IMG/VR virus record: IMGVR_UViG_3300021438_000065
Span: 1-25,249 of that record
Strand: one strand, 5' to 3'
Length of the DNA: 25,249 nt
Source of the DNA: a virus
In this document: piece after piece, positions 7,907-25,249 of the stretch
Layout: every line of letters starts with the position of its first letter
Numbering within the stretch: position 1 is the first letter of the stretch
Program-made: the position numbers and the translations under genes
Notes under the pieces: model-generated
What the model saw: only the letters and a program-made list of their open reading frames with translations
What the model was told of the DNA's origin: nothing
Database searches by the model: none

Positions 7907-7907
7907 A

Positions 7908-8156: not shown

Positions 8157-8171
8157 GAAAACCTCACTAAA

Positions 8172-8208: not shown

Positions 8209-8218
8209 CTTTGGGTTG

Positions 8219-8626: not shown

Positions 8627-8639
8627 AATAATTCCTTTC

Positions 8640-8664: not shown

Positions 8665-8678
8665 ATATTGTTTAACTA

Positions 8679-9596: not shown

Positions 9597-9614
9597 AATT
9601 TATCTCCTTTAAAA

Positions 9615-10247: not shown

Positions 10248-10284
10248 AAAATCTCCATAAAAAATTAGAAATTCTATAACTAGG

Positions 10285-10677: not shown

Positions 10678-10678
10678 C

Positions 10679-11458: not shown

Positions 11459-11472
11459 TTTTTATCCTTTAA

Positions 11473-14057: not shown

Positions 14058-15585
14058 CGTTAAATCCTGCCTCTTCTTTTTCTGTTTCATATTGTTCAAG
14101 ATCTAATTCTTCTTTAGTTAAACCTTCAGACATTAAATCAATTAATATACCCTGATAAGATAATGCATCCACAGTATCATCATGTTTAGCTCGTGGGAAT
14201 GACATACATTCATCTTCAAACATGAGCCACCATTCTGCAGATTTATCAAACTTAACCATACCCGCTCTCATACGTGCTTGTATAGATCTAGCTCTTTGTA
14301 TTTTATCTTGTCTATGTGGTTTTAACATAAGAAGATTCATATAAGTACCAGATTCTTGCATTGCTCTATTTAAATAGGGACCAATAGCTTTTGTAATCTG
14401 TGTATCTTCAATACCAACAGCAATAGGATTATATATCTTTTGTAAAGTTAATAGAGTAGTTACAATATCATTAGCTTCTAGTCTATCACGAATACACTGA
14501 ACAATATGTAATTGTCCATTTGAATCCATCCCACCCACAATAATTGCTGTATAGTCTGCTCTTTCTTTTTGAGAAATAGCTAAGTCAGCAGTAATATAAA
14601 AAGTTTTATTTTTCTTTCTATCCTCTTCAGTCATAGAAAGAAAATCACCCTTACGAAAATACCTTATAGAATCATCTACAGGATTACATAAATATTCACA
14701 AGAATAAACTTCTGGAATACCCTGATCATGAAAGTCTTGTCTAAGTTCCTCAAAGAATTGCTTTGTATTTCTAGCTGGCCAAAGTAGTTTAGAATAATCA
14801 GGATTGTGTGCTCTATATTTAACAGATTTCCACATACCTACTTTTCGCTTTGACCATATCTTTAAATCTTCTACAACAGTATTCTTAGAGTTTTCTTTAG
14901 GCATTAAAGATTCTAAAGGATCATCAAGATTCATTGGTGTACCTACAAATCTAATGATGCCATCTCTAGAACGACAGGGAATTAAAGAACCATAAACCCA
15001 TCTGCGTAATTTATCCCTACGATCTTTATTAGCAACAAGTTCTTCATTAAGAAGATCATCAATAATAACAAGATCAGGTCGTTTGCCATAACCTGCTAAC
15101 ATACCACGTAACTTTTGTTCTGCACCTTTAGCTATAATTCTAAATTTAGTCATATCACTAAATTGAATTATAAAGTCTGTATCAGTATCCTTCTCATAAA
15201 CTAAACCTTTATCCCCAAGTTTTAAACCGAAGAGTTCTTGTATATGTTTTGAGTCTTCCAGTATTTGTTTAATCTGTCCTAAGAACAAAGCAGCTTGTGA
15301 TTCAGTATCAGCAACAATAACAACAAACTCACGTTCTCTGAATAGTACAGCAGCAAGTGTATAAACAATAGTAATAATCGTTGATTTAGCATGACCTCGT
15401 GGAGCGCAGATAGCTACAAATTTATCGGTAGAGCAACATAATTCCCAAAGTTCTTTATGGAAATCCGCAAAGGCTGAAGCATCATCAAAGTATGGAGTAA
15501 GACAAGAAGAAGCAAAACCTTCTATAATTTCCTTTGTAAGTTTAGGCCATACAGGTCTTTTACCGCTCTCGTTTACTCCGCTCAC
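14026..15585 (-). CDS. terL: Terminase large subunit (ATPase-nuclease DNA-packaging motor)
   Basis: A 519-residue protein with both terminase domains. The ATPase part has Walker A APRGHAKST at residues 61-69 and Walker B LVIIDD at 172-177, followed by an SLIPCRSRDGIIRFVGTPMN coupling segment. The RNase-H-like nuclease part has ITADLAISQKERADYTAIIVGG (first catalytic Asp) and a late HDDTVDALSY (last catalytic Asp). It translocates DNA into the prohead and cuts it. The start is a GTG at 15583-15585 with AGGAG upstream, inside the end of the small HNH-like gene. An ATG just before it belongs to the other frame. Confidence 0.93.
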   Translation of the reverse strand: MSGVNESGKRPVWPKLTKEIIEGFASSCLTPYFDDASAFADFHKELWELCCSTDKFVAICAPRGHAKSTIITIVYTLAAVLFREREFVVIVADTESQAALFLGQIKQILEDSKHIQELFGLKLGDKGLVYEKDTDTDFIIQFSDMTKFRIIAKGAEQKLRGMLAGYGKRPDLVIIDDLLNEELVANKDRRDKLRRWVYGSLIPCRSRDGIIRFVGTPMNLDDPLESLMPKENSKNTVVEDLKIWSKRKVGMWKSVKYRAHNPDYSKLLWPARNTKQFFEELRQDFHDQGIPEVYSCEYLCNPVDDSIRYFRKGDFLSMTEEDRKKNKTFYITADLAISQKERADYTAIIVGGMDSNGQLHIVQCIRDRLEANDIVTTLLTLQKIYNPIAVGIEDTQITKAIGPYLNRAMQESGTYMNLLMLKPHRQDKIQRARSIQARMRAGMVKFDKSAEWWLMFEDECMSFPRAKHDDTVDALSYQGILIDLMSEGLTKEELDLEQYETEKEEAGFNDEGRDEVTGY

Positions 15586-15853
15586 TAATCATTGCTCCTT
15601 TAGCATTCCTCTTAAAACTTCGGTTAGTTGCAGGAGACTGGACAAAGAGATTAGCTAATGAGTTAGTACCACCCTTAGATACAGCTTTCTTATGACCCAC
15701 ATCTCCAATAAGAGCTGTAGGAGTAGTCCCCTTTTTCTTAGCTATAATTGACCTAGCTTTATTTCTCATCGCTCTGTCCTTTATTCTTTTACCATTTTTG
15801 TGCTCATGATCCCAGATTTTTTCAGCTTGATAATCACGTTTTCCGTTTTTCAT
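15560..15853 (-). CDS. Small HNH-like protein upstream of terminase
   Basis: A 97-residue very basic protein. Its core 'GDVGHKKAVSKGGTNSLANLFVQSPATNRSFKR' follows the HNH pattern 'D(V/I)DH..P.SKGG.N...NL.....NRS', with Gly in place of the usual Asp before the first His. The His, the Asn and the Asn-Arg are present. HNH proteins next to terminase genes assist cos-type cleavage in several phages. The replaced Asp and the small size leave open that it only binds DNA. It overlaps endonuclease VII at its start and the terminase at its end. RNA: an internal ribosome site for the terminase lies near its 3' end. Confidence 0.6.
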   Translation of the reverse strand: MKNGKRDYQAEKIWDHEHKNGKRIKDRAMRNKARSIIAKKKGTTPTALIGDVGHKKAVSKGGTNSLANLFVQSPATNRSFKRNAKGAMISERSKRER

Positions 15854-16280
15854 GAATGGAATGATAGTTCTCCTCTAGGTAATTAGCAGCATTTCTTAAA
15901 ATATCTGGATTATCGTGATAATATCCCAAACCACGATTACATGCATTACACAAAATACCCCTTATGTGTCCTTTGGTGTGGCAATGATCAACTACAGGAG
16001 CATTAGGCCCCCATGTTTTTGAGAATTCTTTATTGCATATTAAACAAGAGTTATTTTGATGTAGTAACCTAGATAAGAATTCATTTTCAGATATACCATA
16101 TTGTCTTTGTAAATATCTTTCACGAGCAGTTTCTTTATTTTTCTCATTCCAATCTTTAGTATCTTTTGCACAACAAGTTTTACATCTACATTGATATCCT
16201 GGTTTTCTATTTGTAGGTCTTTTAAAACTAAATTCACTTATTAGTTTTTCTTCTTTACATTTCGTACAAACTTTCAGCAT
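15834..16280 (-). CDS. Recombination endonuclease VII-like nuclease
   Basis: A 148-residue protein with a T4 endonuclease VII (gp49) type His-Me finger. Residues about 78-125 contain 'CLICNKEF', then 'VVDHCHTKGHIRGILCNACNRGLGYYHDNP', the family hallmark with two CxxC zinc ligand pairs and the DHCH catalytic core. An extra N-terminal zinc ribbon (CTKCKEEK...CRCKTC) precedes it. T4 gp49 resolves branched DNA before packaging, and a place in the packaging operon next to the terminase fits that role. Free-standing homing-type endonuclease VII genes exist too, so mobility cannot be excluded. Its ATG overlaps the TAA of the gene upstream. Confidence 0.88.
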   Translation of the reverse strand: MLKVCTKCKEEKLISEFSFKRPTNRKPGYQCRCKTCCAKDTKDWNEKNKETARERYLQRQYGISENEFLSRLLHQNNSCLICNKEFSKTWGPNAPVVDHCHTKGHIRGILCNACNRGLGYYHDNPDILRNAANYLEENYHSIHEKRKT

Positions 16281-16630
16281 TATTTTAGATACTTTAATTT
16301 GTAGATTGTACGGAGATAATGAGAAAGAAGTTCATCAAGAATATTCTTTAGGGGAGTTACAGAATGACAAAGAGCTTCATAGTTCTTGTCAATCCAAACT
16401 ACATCATCTTGTAATTGTTCTATAGGATCTTTACATTCACAATCAAATTCTACATCAGTAATTTTTTTATAATTACCCTGATAAACTTCAACAAAATTAT
16501 CTAATATATCTATAATCTCTTCATAGAAGTCACCAAGAGCAGTATGTTCAGCATATGAATCTGATTGCCAATGGGCAATATGTGCACAGTTTCTAGTACA
16601 AAAAACTCTAGTAATTAATTCTTCAATCAT
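16280..16630 (-). CDS. DUF5856 / Dps-like helical phage protein
   Basis: I start at the ATG at 16628-16630 (116 residues), which overlaps the terminase small-subunit stop as ATGA and has GGGGA upstream. The segment 'TRNCAHIAHWQSDSYAEHTALGDFYEEIIDILDNFVEVYQG' matches the pattern I associate with phage DUF5856 and resembles the first two helices of Dps/ferritin-like bundles ('..HW....(F/Y)..H..L..FYE...D..D...E...G'), including His and Glu positions that could bind metal. Helical structure continues to the end. Whether it binds iron or DNA is unknown. Location in the packaging operon suggests a role during DNA packaging or in protecting phage DNA. Confidence 0.6.
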   Translation of the reverse strand: MIEELITRVFCTRNCAHIAHWQSDSYAEHTALGDFYEEIIDILDNFVEVYQGNYKKITDVEFDCECKDPIEQLQDDVVWIDKNYEALCHSVTPLKNILDELLSHYLRTIYKLKYLK

Positions 16631-17220
16631 TCTTTTATTCCCCAAGAACCATCTTCAAGTTGAACCACATTCTCACCTTCAATACAATCTTTAACAAGAT
16701 CTTTAACATGTTCTTCATTTAATTTACCAGTAACAAACTTAGTAAATTGATCAGCAAGATTTTGTAATTGTGCTGCTGTGGATTGTTGTTCAACTATCTT
16801 TGTAGGTTGTTTTCTAATTAGTTGTCGTTTGTCTAATAACTGTGTAAAGGTAGTATTAATGTCTCTAAGTTTAGCTGGTATTCTTTTTACCTTACCAGTC
16901 CTAACATCAAACATATACTCACCATTTTCGATTCTATCCATGACTGCATCAAGAGCTTTATCTATTCCTTTACCAAGTCTAGTATCAAGTCTATCATAAT
17001 CATCTTTTTGTATCTCTTGTACTTTCTCTTTCCACCAAGGAGAATTTCTCCATTTGTTTAATGTATGAGTTGGTACATTTACTTGTTCTGATGTTAATGT
17101 GATAGATCCTGTAGCAAGGAATACTCCTATAGCTTCATTCTTTTTTTTATCTGACCAAAGCCCAGGTACTCCCGGTACATTCTTTCTTGGGGCTTTAACG
17201 TATCTCCACGACCCAGGCAT
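16627..17220 (-). CDS. terS: Terminase small subunit (DNA recognition)
   Basis: A 197-residue protein, first gene of the late operon and upstream of terL. Residues about 25-70 form a helix-turn-helix (NEAIGVFLATGSITLTSEQVNVPTHTLNKWRNSPWWKE), as in small terminases that bind pac or cos. The rest is helical (ALDAVMDRIENGEY...TTFTQLLDKRQLIRKQ) and ends in an acidic tail, as in ring-forming small subunits that hand DNA to TerL. AGGAG lies just ahead of the ATG, which is about 30 bases from the likely transcription start of the leftward promoter. Other HTH proteins are possible but position makes this the best call. Confidence 0.78.
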   Translation of the reverse strand: MPGSWRYVKAPRKNVPGVPGLWSDKKKNEAIGVFLATGSITLTSEQVNVPTHTLNKWRNSPWWKEKVQEIQKDDYDRLDTRLGKGIDKALDAVMDRIENGEYMFDVRTGKVKRIPAKLRDINTTFTQLLDKRQLIRKQPTKIVEQQSTAAQLQNLADQFTKFVTGKLNEEHVKDLVKDCIEGENVVQLEDGSWGIKE

Positions 17221-17256
17221 AACTCTCCTTAATTTAAAGTTACAGTATATAATGCT

Positions 17257-17285
17257 ATTATAACATATTTTTTTACCTTTGTCAA
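17257..17285 (-). promoter_or_regulatory. Leftward late-operon promoter, perfect sigma70 consensus
   Basis: On the minus strand TTGACA (17280-17285) is followed by exactly 17 nt and TATAAT (17257-17262), with TGT before the -10 giving an extended -10 (TGn). Both hexamers match 6/6. Transcription would start near 17250, about 30 nt before the small-terminase ATG. A full-consensus promoter for late genes is unusual, because late genes are normally delayed, so a repressor or other control is expected. Confidence 0.9.
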
Positions 17286-17343
17286 GTGTTTTTTACAAAA
17301 ATATAAAAATAAATTAAAAATAATTAAATAATTAAAAAAAGAC
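17286..17343. other. A/T tract between divergent promoters (UP-element or unwinding candidate)
   Basis: These 58 bp separate the two -35 hexamers and are almost pure A and T, with runs such as AAAAATAATTAAATAATTAA. They would serve both promoters as an UP element. An easily melted origin element is an alternative that sequence alone cannot decide. Confidence 0.6.
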
Positions 17344-17372
17344 TTGACTTTTGGATTTATTTATGGTATAAT
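17344..17372 (+). promoter_or_regulatory. Rightward early promoter, near-perfect sigma70 consensus
   Basis: TTGACT (17344-17349), 17 nt, then TATAAT (17367-17372) preceded by TGG (extended -10). The match is 11 of 12 hexamer bases. Start of transcription is expected near 17379. It mirrors the leftward promoter, and both share the flanking GACTTGAC/CACTTGAC context. Confidence 0.9.
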
Positions 17373-17565
17373 ACTATTATCTACAGTGAAATATTATTCA
17401 CTAAAGTTTCAACGGGCTACTCATAACTTCTTATCAGAAGGAAAGAGTGTGCGGCACATACCATACTGATGAGTACAAGGTATGCAACAATTTTCTTTTC
17501 TGTTTTTTTCTTTTTTCCTGCATACCGACAGGTATCTTGTGACAGGTAATTCCCAACACTATTGT

Positions 17566-17580
17566 GGGGGGTAAGGGGGG
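17566..17580 (+). repeat. Double G6 tract (pairs with C tract at 17773)
   Basis: G6-TAA-G6. It stands out in AT-rich DNA. It could pair with the C8-A-C5 tract 190 nt downstream, or form an intermolecular G-quadruplex. Confidence 0.7.
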
Positions 17581-17666
17581 TTTGCTCTTTTTTTAGGTTT
17601 TCTTTACTTTGATAAATAATATATATAACTAAGGTAATGTGGATTCCGTAAGGAAGACACAAATAG

Positions 17667-17679
17667 TATATACGTAGTA
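17667..17679 (+). repeat. Long-range inverted repeat, left arm
   Basis: TATATACGTAGTA is the exact reverse complement of TACTACGTATATA at 18075-18087, about 400 nt away in the same leader. A 13-nt match is not expected by chance in a region of 1 kb. Confidence 0.7.
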
Positions 17680-17772
17680 GTGAATATCCAATATATCCAA
17701 TAGAGCATTATTAAAAAATAGTATAAATTATAGCAGTGTGTGATCTGTAAATAATCATAGTGGGTAGGTTTT

Positions 17773-17786
17773 CCCCCCCCACCCCC
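17773..17786 (+). repeat. C8-A-C5 tract
   Basis: It follows GTGGGTAGGTTTT, with which it can also form a local hairpin (GTGGG with CCCAC). It is complementary to the G tracts at 17566-17580, so the two pairings exclude each other. Confidence 0.7.
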
Positions 17787-17816
17787 TCTAAAATATTCAT
17801 ATACCCTCCCTCTATC

Positions 17817-17837
17817 AAATGAGAACCATTCTCATTT
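17817..17837. promoter_or_regulatory. Fur-box-like 21-bp palindrome (operator candidate)
   Basis: AAATGAGAA-CCA-TTCTCATTT is a perfect 9-bp inverted repeat around 3 bp. Its core TGAGAAC-C-ATTCTCA matches 11-12 of 14 positions of the 7-1-7 Fur consensus TGATAAT-n-ATTATCA. A weak -10 (CATAAT, 17839-17844) lies just downstream and a weak leftward TTGATA overlaps its left edge. It could be a host Fur site or an operator for a phage repressor. Without a T-tract it is not a good terminator. Confidence 0.5.
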
Positions 17838-18074
17838 CCATAATAATAAAAGTGTTCTTTTCACCAATTTATCTTTTCAATTAGTTGGCTTCAGAATTAC
17901 ACTACCTTCTTTAGCTTTACTCTTGGCATGATTCTTGCATGTACTCTTTATTACAAAAGCCCTCTTCTTACATTCAGTATTATAATAGTACCAGTGCATG
18001 TCTGGCAAAACGCTGATTGTCACCTCCAGTCCTGTCAATATCAACAACTTTCTATCACTCCCTGTTATACACTG

Positions 18075-18087
18075 TACTACGTATATA
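18075..18087 (+). repeat. Long-range inverted repeat, right arm
   Basis: TACTACGTATATA, exact reverse complement of 17667-17679. It is embedded in CTG...CAG, so it also has a short local palindrome. Confidence 0.7.
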
Positions 18088-18156
18088 CAGCCGCCCGCTT
18101 GACCTGTCTTCGGAGAAGAAAGTTATTGACATTGCCACTCCTTACAGTGCCAATTC

Positions 18157-18190
18157 AGCAGCCAGACAAGCTCTGGTGCTATTTTTTTTT
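18157..18190 (+). terminator. Intrinsic terminator just before first early gene (attenuator candidate)
   Basis: AGCA-G-CCAGA (18157-18166) pairs with TCTGG-TGCT (18172-18180) over 9 bp with one bulged G and loop CAAGC, followed by A and nine T. It lies only 15 bp before the ATG at 18206 with that gene's AGGAGA between. Since no good promoter lies between it and the gene, the terminator must be bypassed or suppressed for early gene expression. Confidence 0.85.
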
Positions 18191-18205
18191 ATTTAGGAGA
18201 TAGAG

Positions 18206-18568
18206 ATGATTAAGTATGCTCGCTATGGAGGATATGAATGCTCCTCCAAAGGTGATCGGCGATTTAGTGCCTTTTATGCTATCCTTCCTGATGGTAAGAG
18301 CATTGAATGGCATTACCAGTGCTCCGTTAAAGGGTATTCCTCGATTAAAGAGGGGAAAGGTAAACCTCCTCTTAAACCTTGTGATACTCAGCAAGCCTAC
18401 ATCGACTTATGGGCACTATGGGCCAAAAACAACCCTGAATTGATGTATGAGTTATTTGTATTGGTAGGACCTAATGGTACGCTTAGTGATATGTTCGCTA
18501 AGACCCCGATCAACCAAGCAAGAACCCTCGCTTACTTACTGAATAACCCTAAATTATGGAGAACATAA
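18206..18568 (+). CDS. Conserved phage early protein of unknown function
   Basis: A 120-residue protein, first gene of the rightward set, with AGGAGA 9 bases upstream of the ATG. The pattern 'KGDRRFSAFYAILPDGKSIEWHYQCSVKGY...GKGKPP', then 'YIDLWALWAKNNPELM' and 'LSDMFAKTPINQARTLAYLLN' is one I recognise from early regions of many unrelated phages ('G.RRFSAF.A.....SIE..YQ...KG...GKG......Y..LW..W...NP.L......LTDMFA....NQARALA.IL'). No function is established. First-expressed position behind an attenuator would fit a host-takeover or anti-defence protein, which is inference. Confidence 0.75.
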   Translation: MIKYARYGGYECSSKGDRRFSAFYAILPDGKSIEWHYQCSVKGYSSIKEGKGKPPLKPCDTQQAYIDLWALWAKNNPELMYELFVLVGPNGTLSDMFAKTPINQARTLAYLLNNPKLWRT

Positions 18569-18654
18569 TGATTCGCCTGATCGACAACACCCTAATGCTG
18601 ATCTTCATCTTGATCTGCTTGGTTCTTCCTCGTTACTTGGAGTCACTGCTATGA
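18568..18654 (+). CDS. 28-residue single-TM peptide
   Basis: This very small ORF (MIRLIDNTLMLIFILICLVL, then PRYLESLL) has GGAGA 6 bases before its ATG, overlaps the upstream TAA by one base (TAATG), and shares ATGA with the gene after it. Residues 8-20 are strongly hydrophobic, giving one transmembrane helix with a basic N-terminus and short C-tail. The coupling on both sides supports a real gene. Possible roles are superinfection exclusion or membrane targeting; none is shown. Confidence 0.6.
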   Translation: MIRLIDNTLMLIFILICLVLPRYLESLL

Positions 18655-18818
18655 ATGCTGAAACCACCGCTGCTCTACATGTAATTGGTAATCAACTTAG
18701 TAACCAGTTCCTAGATGCTCTGTTTAAGGGCAGCGCCTACGACTGGAGAATGAACAAATACAAAGTAGAATTGCTTGATCTTGATATCATGTATCTCAAC
18801 TTCCCATTCTTGTACTAA
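18651..18818 (+). CDS. Hypothetical 55-residue early protein
   Basis: Its ATG overlaps the TGA of the one-TM peptide (ATGA), with GGAG 8 bases upstream. The sequence (NAETTAALHVIGNQLSNQFL, then DALFKGSAYDWRMNKYKVEL) is helical and soluble, ending in a hydrophobic aromatic tail (LNFPFLY). It is not recognised. Confidence 0.6.
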   Translation: MNAETTAALHVIGNQLSNQFLDALFKGSAYDWRMNKYKVELLDLDIMYLNFPFLY

Positions 18819-18830
18819 TAGGAGATTCAC

Positions 18831-19100
18831 ATGACTAAGAAATCCCTCACACTGTTAATTGTTGAATCAGCTCTTCGTACAGCAGCAAACCATGTCTTAC
18901 GGTTGAACACAATCAACCAACTAGCCGACAAAGGATGTTTGCCTATGCACTTTATCAACACCAACAACAAATCCTTTTGGATGTTCACAGTAGCCGGCTT
19001 CGACTTCCACTACGAAGAGACTGAAGCCAACAAGTTCTTTGTGAAAATCGCAGAGAACAACTACAAGGATCTACCAAAGCAAAACCTTGAACTTAGTTAG
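18831..19100 (+). CDS. Hypothetical early protein
   Basis: An 89-residue protein with a strong ribosome site (AGGAG 7 bases before the ATG). The N-terminal half is a basic helix (SLTLLIVESALRTAANHVLRLNTINQLA); the C-terminal half looks like a small alpha/beta fold (SFWMFTVAGFDFHYEETEANKFFVKIAE). It has no recognised family. It belongs to the same GC-richer early block as its neighbours and is followed by a structured gap. Confidence 0.65.
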   Translation: MTKKSLTLLIVESALRTAANHVLRLNTINQLADKGCLPMHFINTNNKSFWMFTVAGFDFHYEETEANKFFVKIAENNYKDLPKQNLELS

Positions 19101-19110
19101 TATCTCCTCT

Positions 19111-19157
19111 ATGGTCGGTCATCACTATTGACTGGCCATGTGGGAGCACCTAGCTCC
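19111..19157 (+). promoter_or_regulatory. Tandem RNA hairpins carrying the GGTCGGTCAT motif
   Basis: ATGGTCGGTCA (19111-19121) pairs fully with TGACTGGCCAT (19129-19139) as 11 bp with two G-U pairs and a 7-nt loop. A second hairpin, GGAGC-ACCTA-GCTCC (19143-19157), follows. No T-tract is present, so an mRNA-processing, translation-control or protein-binding element is more likely than a terminator. Confidence 0.6.
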
Positions 19158-19187
19158 ATTCAACCACTTCCTTGAAAGGTAACTCAA

Positions 19188-20105
19188 ATGCTTAACGCTA
19201 TCCGTTCCGCTCTCATCAACATGCTTGGTGGTAAAATCATCCAGAAGCAGATCACCGAAGCTGCACCTGTTCATAACTTCGGTCATGGTCGTACTTCTGG
19301 TCGGCCTGTCTATAACACTCAGCCGACTGAAGTTATCAAGGGCCATATGACCCCTGCTGACCTCAGCGACTTAGTTAGTGAGTGGTCAAAGTCCTCAATT
19401 GCCAATCAAGCTTCTTGGATTGCGCTTGCAGGTGCATGGCAACTCTTCGACAAGGAAATGAACAAGACTCCCGATCGTAGGAACTTGCAAGCTGTTGAAG
19501 CATCCTTGGATAAATTCCATGCTTGGAATGCTGTTAGCCCTCGTCCTTACGATGAGTCTGGTATCGAAGAGCAAGTAATCAAAATGTCAATGAAAAACGT
19601 CAGCAAGGGAAACAAAGAAACGGATGCCATTCGTGCTCGCATCCGTGGTGTCTCGATCCAAATGTTCCAGCAAGAACGGGAACGGTTGGAGAGGTTGCGT
19701 CAAGCTACCTCAGTTGAACGGATCAAGTCGTTCCTCTCGATGTGCAACAACTGCCCAAGCTGTGATGGTAACTACCATATCTCAGTGCAACAAGTTGTCA
19801 AGAAGCTTGAAGATACTTGCATGTTTCTTGCTGATCCTGCTCGCCAGTTTGACGACATCTGGGCAACATCGGAAATCTTGTTGATCGAAGGTGACATCGC
19901 TACAGTGAAACAAAACTATGGTCGCAACAACGAGAACAACGAACCCTTCGTCAATGGTGTTCTCACCAGCGACCACATGATGCGCAACAGTACTCTGGCA
20001 ACAGAGAACAATCGGGGAAAGACCGGCGAAGCTAGTAAGAACGCTGAAGTCGTTAGCAATCAGAAAGCCTACGAAGATTGGCTAGCTTCAGAACACGCTG
20101 CTTAA
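19188..20105 (+). CDS. Unrecognised 305-residue early protein
   Basis: The largest gene of the early block, with AAAGG 9 bases before the ATG. It has visibly higher G+C than the genes further right. No domain is recognised. The protein is mostly helical and charged: a basic start (MLNAIRSALINMLGGKI), a helical middle (ALAGAWQLFDKEM..., QQERERLERLRQA), then a cysteine cluster MCNNCPSCDG at about residues 184-193 that could bind a metal. The C-terminus is polar and Asn-rich. It is flanked on both sides by hairpins that share GGTCGGTCA, so its mRNA could be regulated as a unit. Function unknown. Confidence 0.7.
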   Translation: MLNAIRSALINMLGGKIIQKQITEAAPVHNFGHGRTSGRPVYNTQPTEVIKGHMTPADLSDLVSEWSKSSIANQASWIALAGAWQLFDKEMNKTPDRRNLQAVEASLDKFHAWNAVSPRPYDESGIEEQVIKMSMKNVSKGNKETDAIRARIRGVSIQMFQQERERLERLRQATSVERIKSFLSMCNNCPSCDGNYHISVQQVVKKLEDTCMFLADPARQFDDIWATSEILLIEGDIATVKQNYGRNNENNEPFVNGVLTSDHMMRNSTLATENNRGKTGEASKNAEVVSNQKAYEDWLASEHAA

Positions 20106-20114
20106 TGTAACACA

Positions 20115-20163
20115 AAGGGTCGGTCATTGATCCAAGGATCACTTGGTCATGTGGCTGACCCTT
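20115..20163 (+). promoter_or_regulatory. Branched RNA hairpin carrying the GGTCGGTCAT motif
   Basis: AAGGGTCGGTCA (20115-20126) pairs fully with TGGCTGACCCTT (20152-20163) as 12 bp including two G-U pairs. Inside it TGATCC-AA-GGATCA (20128-20141) forms a second stem. No strong T-tract follows. The 5' arm repeats the motif of the hairpin at 19111, while the 3' arm differs by G-U exchanges. Confidence 0.65.
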
Positions 20164-20184
20164 CCATTTACTTAGGAGATTACC

Positions 20185-20490
20185 ATGCTTTACAATTCCA
20201 AGCAACAAGTCGTCAATCTTACCAACGCTGAAAAGCACATCTGCAACGAAGGTCTGGCCGAACTCGCGGCGCTAACTTCCAAGAAGCGCTCGCTAGTCAA
20301 TGCCATCATCCGTGCTCGACAACGCATTCTCAGCCCATTGCGTGAAACCAAGGAACAACCCGATCCTAATGGTCGTAGTTGCAATGGTATGTTCACCATC
20401 AAAACCCGTTTGCAGTATGTTTTTTATTCGACACCGGCATACAACGGCCTCAAGAACAGCGGTCGTGAGCGGCATGTTCTCACCAACTAG
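20185..20490 (+). CDS. Hypothetical early protein
   Basis: A 101-residue basic protein with AGGAGA 7 bases before the ATG. A helical N-terminal part (TNAEKHICNEGLAELAALTS, then KKRSLVNAIIRARQRILSPL) is followed by a beta-prone C-terminal part (GMFTIKTRLQYVFYSTPAYNGL). It is not recognised. A high positive charge would suit nucleic acid binding, but that is only a guess from composition. Confidence 0.62.
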   Translation: MLYNSKQQVVNLTNAEKHICNEGLAELAALTSKKRSLVNAIIRARQRILSPLRETKEQPDPNGRSCNGMFTIKTRLQYVFYSTPAYNGLKNSGRERHVLTN

Positions 20491-20498
20491 AAACTAAC

Positions 20499-20684
20499 AT
20501 GAAAATCTCCTATACTGTCACACGAGACTTCAACATTACCGTCGCTGAAGCACAACTCATCAGAGGTTTATATAGTGTTAATGAAGATGGTTTGGCCAAC
20601 AAATTTATTAAAGAACAATATGCAGATCTCAGCCTATATGAAAGTAAAAAGATATGTGAAGCCGTAAATAACACCAAGCAGTAA
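20499..20684 (+). CDS. Hypothetical early protein
   Basis: A 61-residue protein 8 bases after the previous gene, without a clear ribosome site, so probably coupled. It starts with a beta strand (MKISYTVTRDFNITV) followed by helices (AEAQLIRGLYSVNEDGLANKF, IKEQYADLSLYESKKICEAV). It is not recognised. Confidence 0.55.
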   Translation: MKISYTVTRDFNITVAEAQLIRGLYSVNEDGLANKFIKEQYADLSLYESKKICEAVNNTKQ

Positions 20685-20690
20685 CCAAAC

Positions 20691-20716
20691 ACAGCTTCTT
20701 CCCACGAGGAAGCTGT
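20691..20716 (+). other. Intergenic hairpin
   Basis: ACAGCTTC (20691-20698) and GAAGCTGT (20709-20716) form an 8-bp stem with a 10-nt loop in the gap between two small genes. No T-tract follows, so it is a weak terminator at best; an RNA-processing or stability element is possible. Confidence 0.45.
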
Positions 20717-20753
20717 TACGGCAATCCTGCCCACACATAAAGATAAAAATAAA

Positions 20754-20909
20754 ATGAAACACGCAATTCCCAAACACTGTTCAGGCTGCAAACACCTCTG
20801 GACAAAAGGAATAAAAGACGGGACACACGACAGATGGTGCCCCAAATACAATAAATCCGCACCAAAAGCATTAGGCGAATGTAAATTAAAAAAGGGTAAG
20901 GAAATATAA
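20754..20909 (+). CDS. 51-residue zinc-binding-like protein
   Basis: A small ORF starting at ATG 20754, whose stop shares a base with the next ATG (TAATG). Four cysteines are arranged as HCSGC (residues 8-12), WC (29) and EC (43) with nearby His, a plausible zinc site. The protein is very basic (HLWTKGIKDG, CKLKKGKEI). Tiny Cys-rich proteins of the type 'C..C..L......G......C.........G.C' are frequent in phage early regions, function unknown. No strong ribosome site is visible. Confidence 0.5.
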   Translation: MKHAIPKHCSGCKHLWTKGIKDGTHDRWCPKYNKSAPKALGECKLKKGKEI

Positions 20910-21097
20910 TGTCCCAAGAAATCCGTGACATGCTCACCCAACGCCAATCTCAGTACGCTTGGGAAGCATATCTCAAGCACCGTGAGCATGGAAAAGAGCA
21001 GCCTTCGGCTGAAGAAAAACCAGAACCTACCCAAGTTCTCCCCTCGCTTCGCTCGGGAGAAGCGGAAATGGTCGGTCATAATAAACATAGCTTGTAA
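20909..21097 (+). CDS. Hypothetical 62-residue protein
   Basis: It begins at an ATG overlapping the upstream TAA, with AAGGAA 6 bases before. The first half is a helix (SQEIRDMLTQRQSQYAWEAYLKHREHG). The second half is encoded by DNA containing two GC-rich hairpins (20999-21011 and 21036-21061) and reads like low-complexity sequence, so it may be an inserted palindromic element that was absorbed into the frame. A copy of GGTCGGTCAT lies near its end. Confidence 0.55.
   Translation: MSQEIRDMLTQRQSQYAWEAYLKHREHGKEQPSAEEKPEPTQVLPSLRSGEAEMVGHNKHSL
21036..21061 (+). repeat. GC-rich palindromic element inside a gene
   Basis: TTCTCCC (21036-21042) pairs with GGGAGAA (21055-21061) around CTCGCTTCGCTC. 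Together with CAGCC-TTC-GGCTG at 20999-21011 it forms a two-hairpin block of GC-rich DNA in AT-rich surroundings, of the kind found in mobile palindromic (REP-like) elements and plasmids. Confidence 0.5.
21070..21079 (+). repeat. GGTCGGTCAT motif copy
   Basis: Exact 10-nt copy, read in frame as Val-Gly-His in the 62-residue gene; no hairpin partner is seen. Confidence 0.6.
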
Positions 21098-21112
21098 TAA
21101 GAAATTTTAATC

Positions 21113-21253
21113 ATGAACTCAAAAATCAAACGACTCCTATTCCCAAAAAGACAATCTTGGGTAATTAATAAACTAATTCAAGACACTTTAATCCCTTTAA
21201 AGATCTTTAAACAAGCCACTGCAGTTTATTTAAAAACCCTCAAGGAAAAATAA
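21113..21253 (+). CDS. Hypothetical 46-residue basic protein
   Basis: Runs from ATG 21113 to TAA 21251-21253. It is very basic (SKIKRLLFPKRQSWVINKLI, FKQATAVYLKTLKEK) and helical. The stop overlaps the next gene's ATG (TAATG). No good ribosome site lies upstream, so the support is mainly the tight coupling to the gene that follows. Confidence 0.45.
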   Translation: MNSKIKRLLFPKRQSWVINKLIQDTLIPLKIFKQATAVYLKTLKEK

Positions 21254-21396
21254 TGTATACTTATAAAAAAGAAGAACCTACTTTTACTGATGAAGAATAC
21301 TATTTTGTTATCTATGATCCTAATAATATTCAAATTTGTACTGTTAATTACGTACAAGAAGCAGAAGCATTAATCTCTCACCTTAATCAAGAATAA
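21253..21396 (+). CDS. Hypothetical 47-residue acidic protein
   Basis: ATG at 21253 with AAGGA 7 bases upstream, overlapping the previous TAA by one base. The sequence (DEEYYFVIYDPNNIQICTVN, YVQEAEALISHLNQE) predicts a beta hairpin followed by a helix, a sensible mini-fold. It is not recognised. The next ORF starts one base after its stop. Confidence 0.52.
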   Translation: MYTYKKEEPTFTDEEYYFVIYDPNNIQICTVNYVQEAEALISHLNQE

Positions 21397-21397
21397 T

Positions 21398-21544
21398 ATG
21401 CCTGAAGATCTCAATACTTATTATAGAGGTTATAAAATATTTACACAACCTTTTTTAGAAAAATACCCTGATTAGACAAAATCATTTTATAACCCATTAG
21501 ATGACATTGATTCTTTCTGTATGTATTGTATGATGTCAATCTAA
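21398..21544 (+). pseudogene. Small ORF interrupted by an in-frame amber codon
   Basis: From ATG 21398 the frame reads 25 codons, hits TAG at 21473-21475, then continues protein-like (TKSFYNPLDDIDSFCMYCMM) to TAA at 21542. A TGG-to-TAG change (Trp) would restore a 48-codon gene. It may be a 25-residue peptide, a nonsense-mutated gene, or a readthrough product. TAG is a genuine stop elsewhere in this genome (for example 5254 and 7908), so general recoding is unlikely. Confidence 0.4.
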
Positions 21545-21551
21545 CTTTTAA

Positions 21552-21577
21552 GCCCGAGTGGTGGAACTGGTATACAC
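21552..21577 (+). pseudogene. 5' fragment of a tRNA-Leu (acceptor 5' strand and D arm)
   Basis: GCCCGAG-TG-GTG, an 11-nt loop, and CAC reproduce the first 26 bases of a bacterial tRNA-Leu, including the D stem GTG/CAC and the GG of the D loop. No matching anticodon arm, T arm or 3' acceptor strand follows. The tRNA-Leu downstream does not pair with it, so this is a remnant of duplication or recombination. Confidence 0.55.
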
Positions 21578-21586
21578 AAATAATGC

Positions 21587-21615
21587 TTGCCACAAGCTCT
21601 TAAATAAGTTATAAT
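21587..21615 (+). promoter_or_regulatory. sigma70 promoter for tRNA-Leu
   Basis: TTGCCA (21587-21592), 17-nt spacer, TATAAT (21610-21615): 11 of 12 consensus bases. The tRNA-Leu begins 11 nt after the -10, so transcription would start within a few bases of the mature 5' end. Confidence 0.7.
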
Positions 21616-21625
21616 GTAGTTTCCT

Positions 21626-21710
21626 GGGGGGTTGTCCAAATAGGTAAAGGAAAGGGATTTAAAATCCCTCGGCATAAGCCTTACGAGTTCGACTCTCGTA
21701 CCCCCTACCA
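21626..21710 (+). tRNA. tRNA-Leu (anticodon UAA)
   Basis: An 85-nt type II tRNA. The acceptor GGGGGGT pairs with ACCCCCT (one G-U at the end), followed by discriminator A and encoded CCA. D stem TCC/GGA with GG in the loop; anticodon stem AGGGA/TCCCT with loop TTTAAAA, giving anticodon TAA; long variable arm GGC-ATAA-GCC; T arm ACGAG-TTCGACT-CTCGT. It reads UUA, a common Leu codon in this AT-rich phage. Confidence 0.9.
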
Positions 21711-21733
21711 TCACTTTATACTAAGGAAATTAC

Positions 21734-21871
21734 ATGAAAATTTAGGATCCCTACAAAAGAAAGGACGGTCGGTCACACATCATAATAATTAATAACAAAA
21801 AAAGAATTACCATCTCTTATCCAAGGTTTTTATTGGAACAACATTTACAAAGTCTTAATAAAGGTAAATAA
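21734..21871 (+). pseudogene. Remnant of an HNH-type homing endonuclease N-terminus with amber codon 4
   Basis: AAGGAA precedes ATG 21734, but codon 4 is TAG. Beyond it the frame reads 'DPYKRKDGRSHIIIINNKKR' then 'ITISYPRFLLEQHL', the N-terminal pattern of phage HNH endonucleases ('Y.R.DGR..(V/I).......(K/R)..(S)YPRYLME.HLGR'), and stops after 45 codons, before the HNH catalytic region. Truncation plus the nonsense codon suggest a decayed homing endonuclease, next to a tRNA as is common. A copy of the GGTCGGTCA motif lies inside. Confidence 0.5.
21767..21776 (+). repeat. GGTCGGTCAC motif copy (one mismatch)
   Basis: Matches 9 of 10 bases of GGTCGGTCAT and lies in the HNH remnant. Confidence 0.5.
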
Positions 21872-21872
21872 A

Positions 21873-22238
21873 ATAAAACTCTTTTCTTTAATTTTTGTTG
21901 CACTTCTCTCTGTTGCTTGTTCAAAAACTGCTGAACAAAAGATCGAAAGTAATATTAATTCATCAATTCATGCACTCACAGAAGACGAGCGACCACTTGC
22001 ACAAATGAATGCAAAAGCATTCTTTGAAAAAGAATTCCCTGTTGAAAAAAATGGAGAACTCACCAAAGAACGAGGAGCATTCCTCGAATGTCGACCATCT
22101 GACAGTAACTTCAATGGTCTGGTTACATGTAAAGGTCTTGTTCCTCAACATAAGGGAGGATTCCGAGAAGTTACACGTTACTGTGGATATAAAAAAGAAC
22201 TTGTGGGATGTTCAGACGAGGACACTGTATCCAAATAA
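21873..22238 (+). CDS. Small lipoprotein with no standard start codon (AUA candidate start)
   Basis: The frame 21873-22238 encodes a lipoprotein signal (KLFSLIFVALLSVACSK) with the lipobox SVAC, so Cys-17 would be lipidated and the rest (AEQKIESNINSSIHAL..., 104 residues) lie in the periplasm or outer surface. The mature part has four Cys (ECRPSD, TCKGL, YCGYKK, GCSDED) that could form disulfides. No ATG, GTG or TTG precedes the signal peptide. An ATA at 21873 sits exactly where Met is expected, with AAGG 8 bases upstream. An internal ATG (22005) would drop the signal. Either ATA is used, or the start was lost by ATG to ATA. Possible roles are superinfection exclusion or envelope modification. 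Confidence 0.55.
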   Translation: MKLFSLIFVALLSVACSKTAEQKIESNINSSIHALTEDERPLAQMNAKAFFEKEFPVEKNGELTKERGAFLECRPSDSNFNGLVTCKGLVPQHKGGFREVTRYCGYKKELVGCSDEDTVSK

Positions 22239-22246
22239 ATAATAGT

Positions 22247-22322
22247 GGGCGGTTAGCTCAGTAGGTAGAGCTGCGGACTCATAATCCGTAGGTCACTGGT
22301 TCAAATCCAGTACCGCCCACCA
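22247..22322 (+). tRNA. tRNA with CAU anticodon (Ile2 more likely than Met)
   Basis: A 76-nt tRNA: GGGCGGT pairs fully with ACCGCCC, then A and encoded CCA. D arm with TAGCTCAGTAGGTAGAGC; anticodon stem GCGGA/TCCGT with loop CTCATAA, anticodon CAT; T arm ACTGG-TTCAAAT-CCAGT. The region around the anticodon and T arm ('GACTCATAATC', then 'GGTC.CTGGTTCAA.TCCAG') resembles bacterial tRNA-Ile2(k2CAU) more than elongator tRNA-Met. As Ile2 it would read AUA, frequent in this phage. Confidence 0.9.
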
Positions 22323-22330
22323 ATCATAAT

Positions 22331-22409
22331 GAGTAATTAATTCAACTGGTAGAACAACAATTCCCGGACTCCAACATAGTTATAAGTTCGAGCCCTGTAT
22401 CACTCACCA
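22331..22409 (+). pseudogene. Degenerate tRNA (Trp-like), probably non-functional
   Basis: GAGTAAT pairs with ATCACTC except one A-C mismatch, then A-CCA. The D arm (TAATTCAACTGGTAGAAC) and the T loop TTCGAGC are tRNA-like, closest to tRNA-Trp. The T stem ATAAG/CCTGT has a mismatch, and I cannot fold a 5-bp anticodon stem with U33. The order GACTCCAAC suggests a former CCA anticodon. It looks like a decaying tRNA gene. Confidence 0.5.
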
Positions 22410-22419
22410 AGGAACATAA

Positions 22420-22641
22420 ATGAGATATCATATCGGTGATGTTGTTGAATATGTAGGTACTGATATATGGAGTAAAAGACATATTATCCATGAAATAAGT
22501 CATCATGAAGGAGATTTATCTCCTGTATATTCAACAAATAAAGGAGCATGGTTTACAGGAGAAGATTTTAAACTAATTAGAAGAGCTAATAAAAAATCTC
22601 TACGTAAATTAAAAAAAGATATAAGTGCTGAGTATAAGTAA
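22420..22641 (+). CDS. Hypothetical small SH3-like protein
   Basis: A 73-residue protein with AAGGA 7 bases before the ATG. The start 'MRYHIGDVVEYVGTDIWSKRHII' and 'GAWFTGEDFKLI' resemble small SH3-barrel phage proteins ('Y.(V/I)GD.V.Y.G......G....I.......W...EDF.LI'). The C-terminal tail is basic (RRANKKSLRKLKKDI). Function unknown. Its 3' end overlaps the next gene by 17 nt if that gene starts at the GTG. Confidence 0.6.
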   Translation: MRYHIGDVVEYVGTDIWSKRHIIHEISHHEGDLSPVYSTNKGAWFTGEDFKLIRRANKKSLRKLKKDISAEYK

Positions 22642-22975
22642 TATCTTTATTTTCGGAAGTAATGAAGCTGGTCGTCATGGTAAAGGTGCTGCTCTTTATG
22701 CAAGAAAATATTTTAATGCAACCTATGGTCAAGGTTATGGATTACAAGATCGGTCATTCGCTATACCAACAAAAGATTACAACATCCAAACACTCCCCAT
22801 AACAAAAATAAAAATCTATGTAGATAAATTCATTAAATTTGCAGAAGAAAATCCACAATACACATTTAATCTTACTAGAATAGGTTGTGGATTAACAGAA
22901 TATAAAGACGAAGAAATCTCTCCTCTCTTTAAAAATACACCTAATAATGTAAATAAACCTCTAGGATGGAACTAA
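22625..22975 (+). CDS. A1S_2505-type phage protein, macro-domain-like
   Basis: The body 'NIFIFGSNEAGRHGKGAALYARKYFNATYGQGYGLQDRSFAIPTKD...TRIGCGLTEYKDEEISPLF..TPNNVNKPLGW' follows the pattern of the phage protein family annotated A1S_2505-like ('NIFVFGSN.AGRHGAGAA..A....GA..G.G.GL.G.SYAIPTKD....IGCGLAG....I.PLF...P.NV..P.W'). It has the look of a macro-like, nucleotide-binding alpha/beta fold. Relatives typically begin M-(S)-NIF. Here that position is ATA (22634), and the only accepted codon near is GTG 22625. Binding of NAD-derived metabolites (anti-defence) is speculation. Confidence 0.72.
   Translation: MLSISNIFIFGSNEAGRHGKGAALYARKYFNATYGQGYGLQDRSFAIPTKDYNIQTLPITKIKIYVDKFIKFAEENPQYTFNLTRIGCGLTEYKDEEISPLFKNTPNNVNKPLGWN
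22748..22757 (+). repeat. GATCGGTCAT motif copy (one mismatch)
   Basis: Matches 9 of 10 bases of GGTCGGTCAT, inside the A1S_2505-like gene, read in frame as Asp-Arg-Ser. Confidence 0.5.
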
Positions 22976-22976
22976 A

Positions 22977-23198
22977 ATGACTAATGAAGAAAAGCTTACT
23001 GTATTTAAAACTTGGCTTAACGGTACTCAAATTCTATATAAACTAAAATCTATACCAGATATAGACATTAACTGGCAACAAATTACAGACCCCATTTGGG
23101 ATTTTGATTTTTATGATTATAAAACACAAATACAACAAAGACCTCAATTTGTTAAATTCATTAATGAATCCGAAATCTTAATTGAAGAGGAAAAATAA
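22977..23198 (+). CDS. Small phage protein with W-x-F-x-x-Y motif
   Basis: A 73-residue protein starting one base after the previous gene. The pattern 'EEKLTVFKTWLNGTQILYK...WQQITDPIWDFDFYDYKTQIQQRP' fits a small domain common in phages ('I...(W/L).(N/D)G..I.........W......P.W(D/N)F...(D/F)YR(I)').  The next gene holds a second version, so the two are likely paralogues. Function unknown; the domain might bind nucleotides or proteins. Confidence 0.6.
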   Translation: MTNEEKLTVFKTWLNGTQILYKLKSIPDIDINWQQITDPIWDFDFYDYKTQIQQRPQFVKFINESEILIEEEK

Positions 23199-23199
23199 A

Positions 23200-23514
23200 A
23201 TGACACCACAAGAAATAATTGACGTTATTACAGCATATAATGATGGAAAACAAATTGAATATAGAGGCATTTTAGAGAACACATGGTATCCTGCTGATAA
23301 ACCAAAATGGAATTTTATTTCTTTTACTTTCAGAATTGCACCAAAACAAACAAAAGTACTTTATCAATTTTTAGTAAAAGAAGGATCATATTTCCATGCT
23401 AGCTCTACTTTCTTCTCTACTTTAGAAGAAGCAAAAAACTACTACAACAAACAATATCAAACTATAGTACCTATCCAACGTCTTGACTATACCAAATGTA
23501 CCATCGAGGAATAA
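23200..23514 (+). CDS. Small phage protein, paralogue of the gene upstream
   Basis: I start at ATG 23200 (104 residues), with GAGGA 8 bases upstream and one base past the previous stop, rather than at the TTG inside that gene. Residues 1-50 ('TPQEIIDVITAYNDGKQIEY...WYPADKPKWNFISFTFRI') repeat the 'DGKQI.(Y)...W...(D/K)P.W(N/D)F..F.(Y/F)RI' motif of its neighbour. The remaining residues form a second segment (LYQFLVKEGSYFHASSTFFS, TLEEAKNYYNKQYQTIVPI) that looks like a small alpha/beta domain. Function unknown. Confidence 0.62.
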   Translation: MTPQEIIDVITAYNDGKQIEYRGILENTWYPADKPKWNFISFTFRIAPKQTKVLYQFLVKEGSYFHASSTFFSTLEEAKNYYNKQYQTIVPIQRLDYTKCTIEE

Positions 23515-23516
23515 TA

Positions 23517-24359
23517 ATGTTCTATATCCTACGTCGTCATGGTCTTGGTAATGGTTCTACCAAAGCAATTCAACAATATTCACAACATCCAATTACAATT
23601 CTTCGATCTGACAATTTACCTGTTTTAAATAACAAAGATACTGTATTACGTTGGGGATGTACAACAAGCATACCATGCCATGTTGATGACACACCAAAAG
23701 TTCTCAACAATACAAAAAGCATCCACTATAGTAATAATAAAAAAGAATTTCGTCTAATCTTACAAATAAAACATCCAGAAATTACACCTAAAACTTGGCT
23801 TGTTTCCGAAGACGAGAAAATTACTTTCCCTTGCATTATTAGACCACAAAATCATGCACAAGGAAAACATCTTTATCTTTGTAGTTCTTATACAGAACTT
23901 CTTAACACTTGTAACAAATTCACATTTTTAGATACTGGATATATCTCAAAATATATCCCCAAAGTAGCAGAATATCGTGTTTGTTTTATACAAGGTCTTG
24001 TTGCTTGGGTAGCACAAAAAACACCAAAAGACCCACAAGATATCGCTTGGAATGTAGCTCAAGGTAGTAGATTTAATAATCTACGCTGGAAACAATGGCC
24101 AATCTCTGTTATTGAAGCTGCTTACAAAGCATACATCCTTAGTGGATTATATCTAGGTGGTGTTGATGTAATGGTAGATAAAGATGGTCGGTCATTTGTA
24201 TTAGAAATTAATTCCGCACCATCACATACAAGTCCATATCGCCAACAATGCACTACAAAATGTATTGATTATGGAATTACCAATAATAATTTTAAACATT
24301 TACAACCAAATGAAGAATTCAAAAAATACGGCAAATGGCTCCATCCAGCCCTTAAATAA
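23517..24359 (+). CDS. ATP-grasp fold ligase
   Basis: A 280-residue protein (ATG 23517, GAGGA 6 bases upstream). Its layout is that of phage-encoded ATP-grasp enzymes: an N-terminal 'VLRWGCTTSIP...NTKSIHYSNNKKEFRLIL', 'FPCIIRPQNHAQGKHLYLCSS' (the central ATP-lid strand and glycine-rich loop), 'YISKYIPKVAEYRVCFIQGLVAWVAQKTPKDP..IAWNVAQGSRFNN', and 'YLGGVDVMVDKDGRSFVLEINSAPSHTSPYRQQ' (metal-binding Asp, Glu and Asn of the final strand: VLEINSAP). Such enzymes join a carboxylate to an amine through an acyl phosphate, as in RimK or peptide ligases. The substrate is unknown. A glutamine-amidotransferase-like gene is downstream. Confidence 0.82.
   Translation: MFYILRRHGLGNGSTKAIQQYSQHPITILRSDNLPVLNNKDTVLRWGCTTSIPCHVDDTPKVLNNTKSIHYSNNKKEFRLILQIKHPEITPKTWLVSEDEKITFPCIIRPQNHAQGKHLYLCSSYTELLNTCNKFTFLDTGYISKYIPKVAEYRVCFIQGLVAWVAQKTPKDPQDIAWNVAQGSRFNNLRWKQWPISVIEAAYKAYILSGLYLGGVDVMVDKDGRSFVLEINSAPSHTSPYRQQCTTKCIDYGITNNNFKHLQPNEEFKKYGKWLHPALK
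24186..24195 (+). repeat. GGTCGGTCAT motif copy
   Basis: Exact 10-nt copy in the ATP-grasp gene, read as Gly-Arg-Ser, a different frame from the copy at 21070. Confidence 0.6.
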
Positions 24360-24492
24360 AAGAATAAGAGTTAAAGAAATTTTCTTAAATTATTGTGAAA
24401 ATAGTGGTGAACCTGACTATTGGGAAAAAAGACTTTCTCCCAAAGATATTCGCTACATCTTAGCCCCAGAGCATAGAAAAACACCTAAGTAA
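24310..24492 (+). CDS. Small hypothetical protein with uncertain start
   Basis: The protein-like part is 'RVKEIFLNYCENSGEPDYWEKRLSPKDIRYILAPEHRKTPK', after the ATP-grasp stop codon (TAA 24357-24359). The nearest ATG in frame is 24310, inside the ATP-grasp gene and without a ribosome site. An ATA at 24364, five bases past that stop, would give a compact 42-residue protein starting M-R-V-K-E. I keep the ATG as the formal start. Not recognised. Confidence 0.45.
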   Translation: MKNSKNTANGSIQPLNKRIRVKEIFLNYCENSGEPDYWEKRLSPKDIRYILAPEHRKTPK

Positions 24493-24560
24493 TACCTACC
24501 TATCACCTATATAAAACAAATGCCTTCTAGGCCCCTTCCTGTTCGTTTTAGAGGTATTCT

Positions 24561-24737
24561 ATGAGTCTCCCAACAGTCAAAATTCTACCTTGTTCTTGTA
24601 AAAATGAATTTCAAGACAAAACTTACAATAAAAACCAACGTGTTCATAATAGAGGACAAGAAAAAGGAACACATGATAACCCATATGCTGAATATAAATG
24701 TACAGTTTGTCTAAACAAACAACAACATTCTAAATAA
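24561..24737 (+). CDS. 58-residue zinc-binding-like protein
   Basis: ATG 24561 with GAGG 7 bases before it. Cysteines occur as PCSCK (residues 11-13) and KCTVC (47-50) with 'QDKTYNKNQRVHNR' between. This fits a family of small phage zinc proteins ('PCSC.H.FQD..YG...RVHN.......(Y/W).CTVC'). Function unknown. It ends two bases before the next ATG. Confidence 0.65.
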   Translation: MSLPTVKILPCSCKNEFQDKTYNKNQRVHNRGQEKGTHDNPYAEYKCTVCLNKQQHSK

Positions 24738-24738
24738 A

Positions 24739-25089
24739 ATGATCCAAGACAAAATAGTACTCTATAAAGAAACAAAAAGACCACAACCACAAAAGCAAAC
24801 ACAAAACAAATGGCCTATACCATACAAAACACAACTTACAGAAACTTTAAGACAACTTGCAATAAAAGAAGCTATTACAGAAGGTATTAAACCAAACAAA
24901 GTCTTTGTAGATAAAATAAATCCAAATAAAACAATAAAGATTTTAAAATTTTTACCTCTACAAGAATGTCTACTTACTGGGGATGATTCTACAAATTTCA
25001 ATTTTATTCAAGCTGAAGTAAAAAATAGTACAACACATGTAACATCTATTTATACAATAAATGAAATCTTATGGATCTATGATGTATAA
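24739..25089 (+). CDS. Hypothetical protein in the ligase cluster
   Basis: A 116-residue protein directly after the zinc protein, with no clear ribosome site, so likely coupled. A basic N-terminal stretch (KETKRPQPQKQTQNKWPIP) precedes a helix (LTETLRQLAIKEAITEGI) and then a beta-rich part (KVFVDKINPNKTIKILKFLP; THVTSIYTINEILWIYDV). Not recognised. It lies between the ATP-grasp gene and the amidotransferase-like gene, whose ATG is inside its last codons. Confidence 0.6.
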   Translation: MIQDKIVLYKETKRPQPQKQTQNKWPIPYKTQLTETLRQLAIKEAITEGIKPNKVFVDKINPNKTIKILKFLPLQECLLTGDDSTNFNFIQAEVKNSTTHVTSIYTINEILWIYDV

Positions 25090-25249
25090 AGTAGCTCATG
25101 CTTGGTATCCAGATAACAACCCATTCACATGTTTTGAAAATACTTTCACCAAAATTAATTTAAAAGACCTTACAAAAGAACATGTATTATTTCTTTGGGG
25201 TGGTGAAGATATTGCTACTGAAATTTACAATGAAACTCCCTGTAAATTT
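25082..25249 (+). CDS. Class I glutamine amidotransferase-like protein, 5' part (runs off right edge)
   Basis: ATG 25082 lies inside the end of the preceding gene (8-nt overlap), and the frame stays open for 56 codons to the window edge. It reads MYKVAHAWYPDNNPFTCFEN...HVLFLWGGEDIATEIYNETPC. The strand 'VLFLWGGEDI...IY' corresponds to the 'L(V)(L)PGG.D(I/V)...LY' start of class I amidotransferases and gamma-glutamyl hydrolases, as annotated in phages ('FWGG.D(I/V)..(S/A).LY'). The catalytic Cys-His-Glu would lie beyond the edge, so activity cannot be judged. Next to an ATP-grasp ligase it could belong to a peptide or amide forming pathway. Confidence 0.55.
   Translation, partial: MYKVAHAWYPDNNPFTCFENTFTKINLKDLTKEHVLFLWGGEDIATEIYNETPCKF

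Follow-up and report, generated by a model that had tools for sequence, protein, structure and literature searches.

In this study, we report that a short asymmetric word recurs on a single strand of the early region of a virus of bacteria, in a 25.2-kb fragment of its record (IMG/VR record IMGVR_UViG_3300021438_000065; the whole stretch of 25,249 nucleotides is called the window, and positions are numbered on it), and that it is found, in lineage-specific "dialects", across a clade of related phages. The word has the same anatomy as the nick sites of phages tf and LUZ24, and we therefore group it with such sites on the strength of anatomical likeness rather than of proof: it is reasonably likely that the word is recognised by an activity that makes site-specific single-strand nicks in the phage's own virion DNA.

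In the window, the late genes, among them those of the terminase large subunit (terL, 14026-15585, phrog_38), the portal and the major head protein, lie on the minus strand, and the early genes run on the plus strand from about 17.9 kb. This early region (17928-25249, as delimited by open reading frames (ORFs) and protein matches) carries all copies of the word. The 10-mer GGTCGGTCAT stands exactly at four places on the plus strand: at 19113-19122 (intergenic, 65 nucleotides upstream of the ATG of a gene for a 305-amino-acid early protein), at 20118-20127 (intergenic, 3′ of the same gene), at 21070-21079 (within a short ORF, 20909-21097, where it encodes V-G-H-N) and at 24186-24195 (within an ATP-grasp gene, where it encodes G-R-S-F). 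Two further plus-strand copies have one mismatch. The first, GGTCGGTCAC at 21767-21776, is non-coding, lies 3′ of a tRNA-Leu gene and keeps the 9-base core intact. The second, GATCGGTCAT at 22748-22757, lies in a phrog_2072 gene whose frame reads D-R-S-F and is changed at core position 2; as tf words substituted at positions 1, 3 or 4 are not nicked, a rule that we extended to position 2, this copy is not counted as a site and is probably not functional. All six positions had been given by an earlier sequence-only reading of this DNA, as had CGGTCAT at 19280, where our word listing gives TCGGTCAT at 19279. Its statement that the late operon is devoid of copies also holds: none with up to one mismatch occurs on either strand of positions 1-17900.

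The same reading had judged the recurrence to be far beyond chance, and the numbers bear it out. Indeed, the six copies with up to one mismatch compare with 0.39 expected over both strands, a count reached by 0 of 100 dinucleotide shuffles, and the 9-mer core GGTCGGTCA, present five times, always on the plus strand of the early region, compares with 0.009 expected under an order-2 model and tops the over-represented 8- to 10-mers of the window. Since the word was chosen post hoc, we simulated 200 order-2 Markov genomes and scored any 9-mer with at least five G/C whose copies fell on one strand only: the one-strand maximum was two in 11 genomes, three in 174 and four in 15, and five was reached by none of the 200.

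While no nucleotide relative of the window was found in the phage collection, a search with the portal protein yielded 80 IMG/VR loci (78-49% identity), and the motif recurs in their records. Each lineage has its own dialect, GGTCGGTCAT, GGTCGATCAT, GGTCTATCAA, GGTCGGTCCT or GGACGATCAA: GGTCGGTCAT is used in G022 (five copies), G031 (four) and G069 (five), as well as in G062, G009, G021 and G012, GGTCGATCAT in G060 and G042, and GGTCGGTCCT ten times in G080. In several genomes, a ranking of words by over-representation, with none chosen beforehand, puts the dialect word first. The word is thus present in close relatives, far above background, and the G022 ortholog of the 305-amino-acid protein gene also has a copy just upstream, as at 19113. 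A protein scan of viral contigs and phages returned no relative of this protein, and homologs came later through other loci. The clade, large and mostly uncultured, includes one cultured member, Alcaligenes phage vB_Af_QDWS535, which has 11 copies of GGTCGATCA and five of GGTCTATCA, all 16 on the minus strand (L006, 16 of 16), where its early genes lie. Among the papers listed by our literature searches, none of those containing one of six exact motif words is a phage paper, none deals with nicks in this clade and none names QDWS535. A blind scan, which sought words with many sense copies and no antisense copy, returned, as a positive control, TACTGTGAC for tf and TACTATGAC for LUZ24; its top words in this clade were GGTC[GT][AG]TCA words, and it added the dialects GGACGATCAA (L246, 7 sense and 0 antisense) and GGACTATCAA (L253, 4 and 0). 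At least four copies of one dialect occur in 46 of 127 non-redundant records. The word that this clade adds is new and comes in at least five dialects.

Searches with GATase and DnaB helicase gave 159 further early loci, of which 42 were dropped as overlaps and 117 kept as non-redundant. In these 117 loci, GGTC[GT][AG]TC[AC] occurs 283 times in sense and 37 times in antisense (133/3 for GGTCTATCA, 84/9 for GGTCGATCA, 48/11 for GGTCGGTCA), and reversed and complemented control words are balanced, with 2-14 per strand. The orientation count, over the 47 loci with at least three matches, gives 236 sense and 23 antisense sites. The word is indifferent to coding: 182 (84%) of the 217 sites in the 41 one-class loci are in genes predicted by a simple hexamer score rather than by curated annotation, one lies over a gene end and 34 are intergenic, compared with a coding share of 81.5% in the same sequence, and the coding sites are spread over the three frames (56, 46 and 80). 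The distribution is uneven towards one end. Counted from the terL 5′ end into the early region, sense sites per 2.5-kb bin number 28, 27, 18, 19, 14, 8, 8, 3 and 3 from 2.5 kb on, thinning to about three per bin by 20 kb, and antisense sites stay at 0-4 per bin throughout. The sites also keep, as a rule, a distance of at least about 0.7 kb from one another, and short gaps are few: 10 of 253 are shorter than 500 bp against 37-42 expected, and none of 2000 randomisations gave a number as low. Beyond the core, the flank profile holds only an A at -2 and weak preferences. Altogether, the word is a short asymmetric consensus, far above chance, carried by one strand in the window (5 of 5 core copies on the plus strand) and mostly by one strand in the clade.

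When gene families are aligned, sites of different phages often fall in one shared column, with every phage using its own dialect. In GATase, column 311 carries GGTCGGTCC, GGTCTATCA or GGTCGGTCA (the C, T and G words) and column 253 the A and G words. At column 136 of Gn_AT_II, the A word of four phages is replaced by the T word in L176 with the reading G-S-I unchanged, and primase column 95 reads V-D-H-H in L167 and V-Y-H-H in G105. Such same-column switching is the trace that would be expected of a trans-acting reader whose specificity has changed. As the dialects switch at homologous positions, no protein motif accounts for the word; this claim of the sequence-only reading is strongly supported by the coding share, the use of three frames and the genome-wide changes of dialect. 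The reading had further listed replication, modification, transcription and RNA binding as possible functions. That the word is a one-strand recognition site is strongly supported, and the best match, single-strand nicking, was not on the list.

Phage nicks have been described since the 1960s and, to our knowledge, neither their purpose nor, outside T5, the enzyme is known. PMC3517423 describes 14 nicks in phage tf, on the top strand and within TACT/RTGMC, and LUZ24-type relatives that carry mainly TACTATGAC. The annotation of the tf record has 14 nicks on the plus strand and 0 on the minus strand, all in the sense orientation of the early genes; they crowd most closely over the first 16 kb, and no gap is below 721 bp. 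PMC11780129 gives, for phage Rembedalsseter and 60 relatives, 542 WACTRTGAC motifs, 88% of them coding against a coding density of 89%, mostly on the coding strand and concentrated on one side of terL. The early module of our clade is homologous and partly syntenic in tf: hidden Markov models of the clade match its COOH-NH2 ligase, amidoligase, GATase II, ATP-grasp and exonuclease proteins, among others, and the ATP-grasp gene of the window (23496-24359, plus strand, phrog_2599) belongs to the module common to tf and LUZ24. From tf, Rembedalsseter and T5 we infer that the DNA is nicked at the word, the place of the cut and a phage protein as its maker. A phage nickase would read the asymmetric word of 9-10 bp and cut one strand, with a break at GGTC/GGTCA on the plus strand by analogy with tf, which is cut after the fourth base. 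As the word is asymmetric, nicks would accumulate on one strand only, with the highest density over the initial 10-15 kb of the early half, and the word would evolve in dialects because neither the nickase nor its sites can change without the other. Packaging or recombination has been proposed in print as the role of nicks. T5 mutants that lack nicks can grow in the laboratory; despite this, dialect switching suggests that the sites are under selection.

One candidate nickase is a small HNH-type protein of 97 amino acids encoded beside terL (15560-15853, minus strand), of a family common to the window and to homologous ORFs in tf and LUZ24. In tf (L340), the HNH-like ORF that matches the family (16126-16413, plus strand) is in another frame than the annotated tf_29 (16115-16429). 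A second, weaker candidate is the neighbouring endonuclease VII-like protein of 148 amino acids (15834-16280, minus strand; phrog_2633, 1e-34). Dialect switching at homologous positions offers a route to the nickase, as the tree of that enzyme has to agree with the dialects. For the HNH protein, the tree requires two dialect changes over 20 taxa, which is the minimum, and six over all 25 taxa; the minimum of two is also found for GATase (17 taxa) and for two other early families (16 and 14 taxa). As the HNH tree is not uniquely congruent with the dialects, the protein stays only a candidate enzyme. An HNH residue as the determinant (D-L-D-H for the T word, D-V-D-H for the A word) was rejected as it fails for G105, G034, G037 and G069, and the search for a reader protein by presence/absence or nearest neighbour gave nothing specific.

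Several observations weigh against nicking. No protein uniquely tracks the dialect in trees, presence/absence or nearest-neighbour comparisons, and G105 combines the T word with an A-type D-V-D-H HNH protein. The consensus is not that of tf, whose word occurs 46 times forward and 32 times in reverse in the 2.97 Mb of the clade; the clade word occurs in tf once per strand. While the tf nicks were mapped in DNA, the sites of the clade are known from sequence. Finally, the one-strand rule is broken by six to seven genomes of one clade (L145, L149/G069, G080, G042, L167 and L183), which have promoter-proximal antisense sites (five in L145, four in L149, three each in G069 and G080, and others), an arrangement not described for tf. 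In most of them, sites further into the early region turn to sense; in L145 and L149 every promoter-proximal site opposes transcription, and G080 and L167 also have out-of-order sites. A divergent centre in L187 (G126) was rejected, as the genes at its left repeat the early region in inverted orientation. This inverted second early-gene copy (450-4400 and 5500-9200), which adjoins the early region, may be a chimera or a real duplication.

It is possible, with a lower probability than we give to nicking, that these regularly spaced, one-strand, coding-blind words form an oriented address system of the early DNA that involves no nicking, in which a reader that switches dialect drags all sites along and which would act in replication or DNA entry.

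Two other readings seem to us doubtful. The word could be a polar protein roadblock or repressor site that affects the elongation of early-operon transcripts, comparable to the stoperators of L5-type mycobacteriophages, which are copies of the 13-mer GGTGGMTGTCAAG. It is indeed asymmetric, mostly oriented with early transcription and densest near the early promoter, and its consensus drifts by lineage as reported for cluster A phages in PMC6550527. However, L5 stoperators are located in short intergenic spaces according to PMC9283540, whereas promoters and short intergenic spaces are not where our sites concentrate, 182 of 217 being in genes. Moreover, the promoter-proximal sites of L145 and L149 all oppose transcription, and no repressor family appeared among the ten proteins scanned with Pfam, most early proteins lying outside that scan. 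The word could also be an oriented replication signal, for example a preferred priming site that the T7-like primase of the phage reads in the lagging-strand template. Its GGTC matches the T7 primase site, the primase of these phages has a T7-type zinc domain, the spacing is 1-2 kb and the orientation switches along the early region in G080, G042, G069, L149 and L145, as at an origin. Against this, the dialect does not follow the primase type (in G105 and L176, the T word occurs together with a primase of the type found in A-word phages), the late half has almost no sites, GC skew follows transcription with no origin at the orientation switch, and G080 and L167 have out-of-order sites.

An element of the early mRNA, as a cleavage or protein-binding site, is quite improbable, and the RNA-binding option of the sequence-only reading is accordingly disfavoured. 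The word does read in sense with the early transcripts, and the two intergenic copies at 19113 and 20118 are arms of strong predicted hairpins; nonetheless, the accessibility around 281 real sites matches that of identical words at other places and that of shuffled flanks (P 0.30 and 0.33), nothing notable is predicted for the folding of the remaining four window copies, and antisense sites occur in one clade. In the two hairpins (19105-19187 and 20108-20184; z -3.4 and -4.8), the copies form the 5′ arms and the 3′ arms differ. Chance plus protein conservation is already refuted as a general account by the strand bias, the spacing, the simulations and the occurrence of the word in all frames and in dialects, even if a few copies coincide with conserved peptides, such as V-G-H-N-R at Gn_AT_II column 126 in five phages.

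Other candidates were rejected. A phage RNA polymerase promoter does not suit sites that lie mostly within genes and whose flank profile has no downstream element; a T-rich terminator or general RNA hairpin does not suit a word of which only two of the six window copies fold; and a GC-skew origin was dismissed as skew follows genes. A DNA uptake or Chi-like host word was set aside since GGTCKRTCA is at background frequency in three metagenome-assembled genomes of possible hosts (79, 64 and 85 matches in 5.1, 3.4 and 5.6 Mb). In one contig of these genomes (G131:C415:16162-16548), many GGTCTRTCA copies, mostly 27 bases apart, form a tandem repeat unrelated to the phages.

The early regions also hold palindromic repeats: CCTAAYRTTAGG in L006 (25.2-48.1 kb), where about a dozen places coincide with gene borders or lie close to them, ACTAACGTTAG 33 times in G034, TTAACASTGTTAA 11 times in G080 and AGTCTAGACTA 12 times in L001. 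These repeats resemble operator sites for a dimeric regulator. In the window, a tRNA-Leu(taa) and a tRNA-Met were called within 21545-22412; around 21555 and at 22331-22412, sequences that are tRNA-like by eye were not called.

Compared with known systems, the word resembles the stoperators of L5 and cluster A phages in being asymmetric, oriented with transcription, present many times per genome and lineage-specific in consensus, but those are intergenic with a known repressor, whereas the sites described here are coding-neutral. With the nick sites of T5 and phiKMV-like phages, as reported in PMC3517423, it shares the character of a largely one-strand, asymmetric, site-specific mark; the consensus is unrelated, and in T5 the marks are partly degenerate and depend on more context. 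From tf and LUZ24 it differs in the word itself, GG[TA]C[GT][AG]TC[AC], in its at least five dialects and in the one clade with antisense sites. The likeness to these two phages extends to a 9-bp asymmetric word with about 8-14 copies per 45-50 kb, mostly on one strand and sense to the early genes, coding-neutral and most frequent in the third of the genome next to the early end, within a homologous early module and a terL-anchored layout, and to one-letter dialects, the tf and LUZ24 words themselves differing by one letter just 3′ of the cut.

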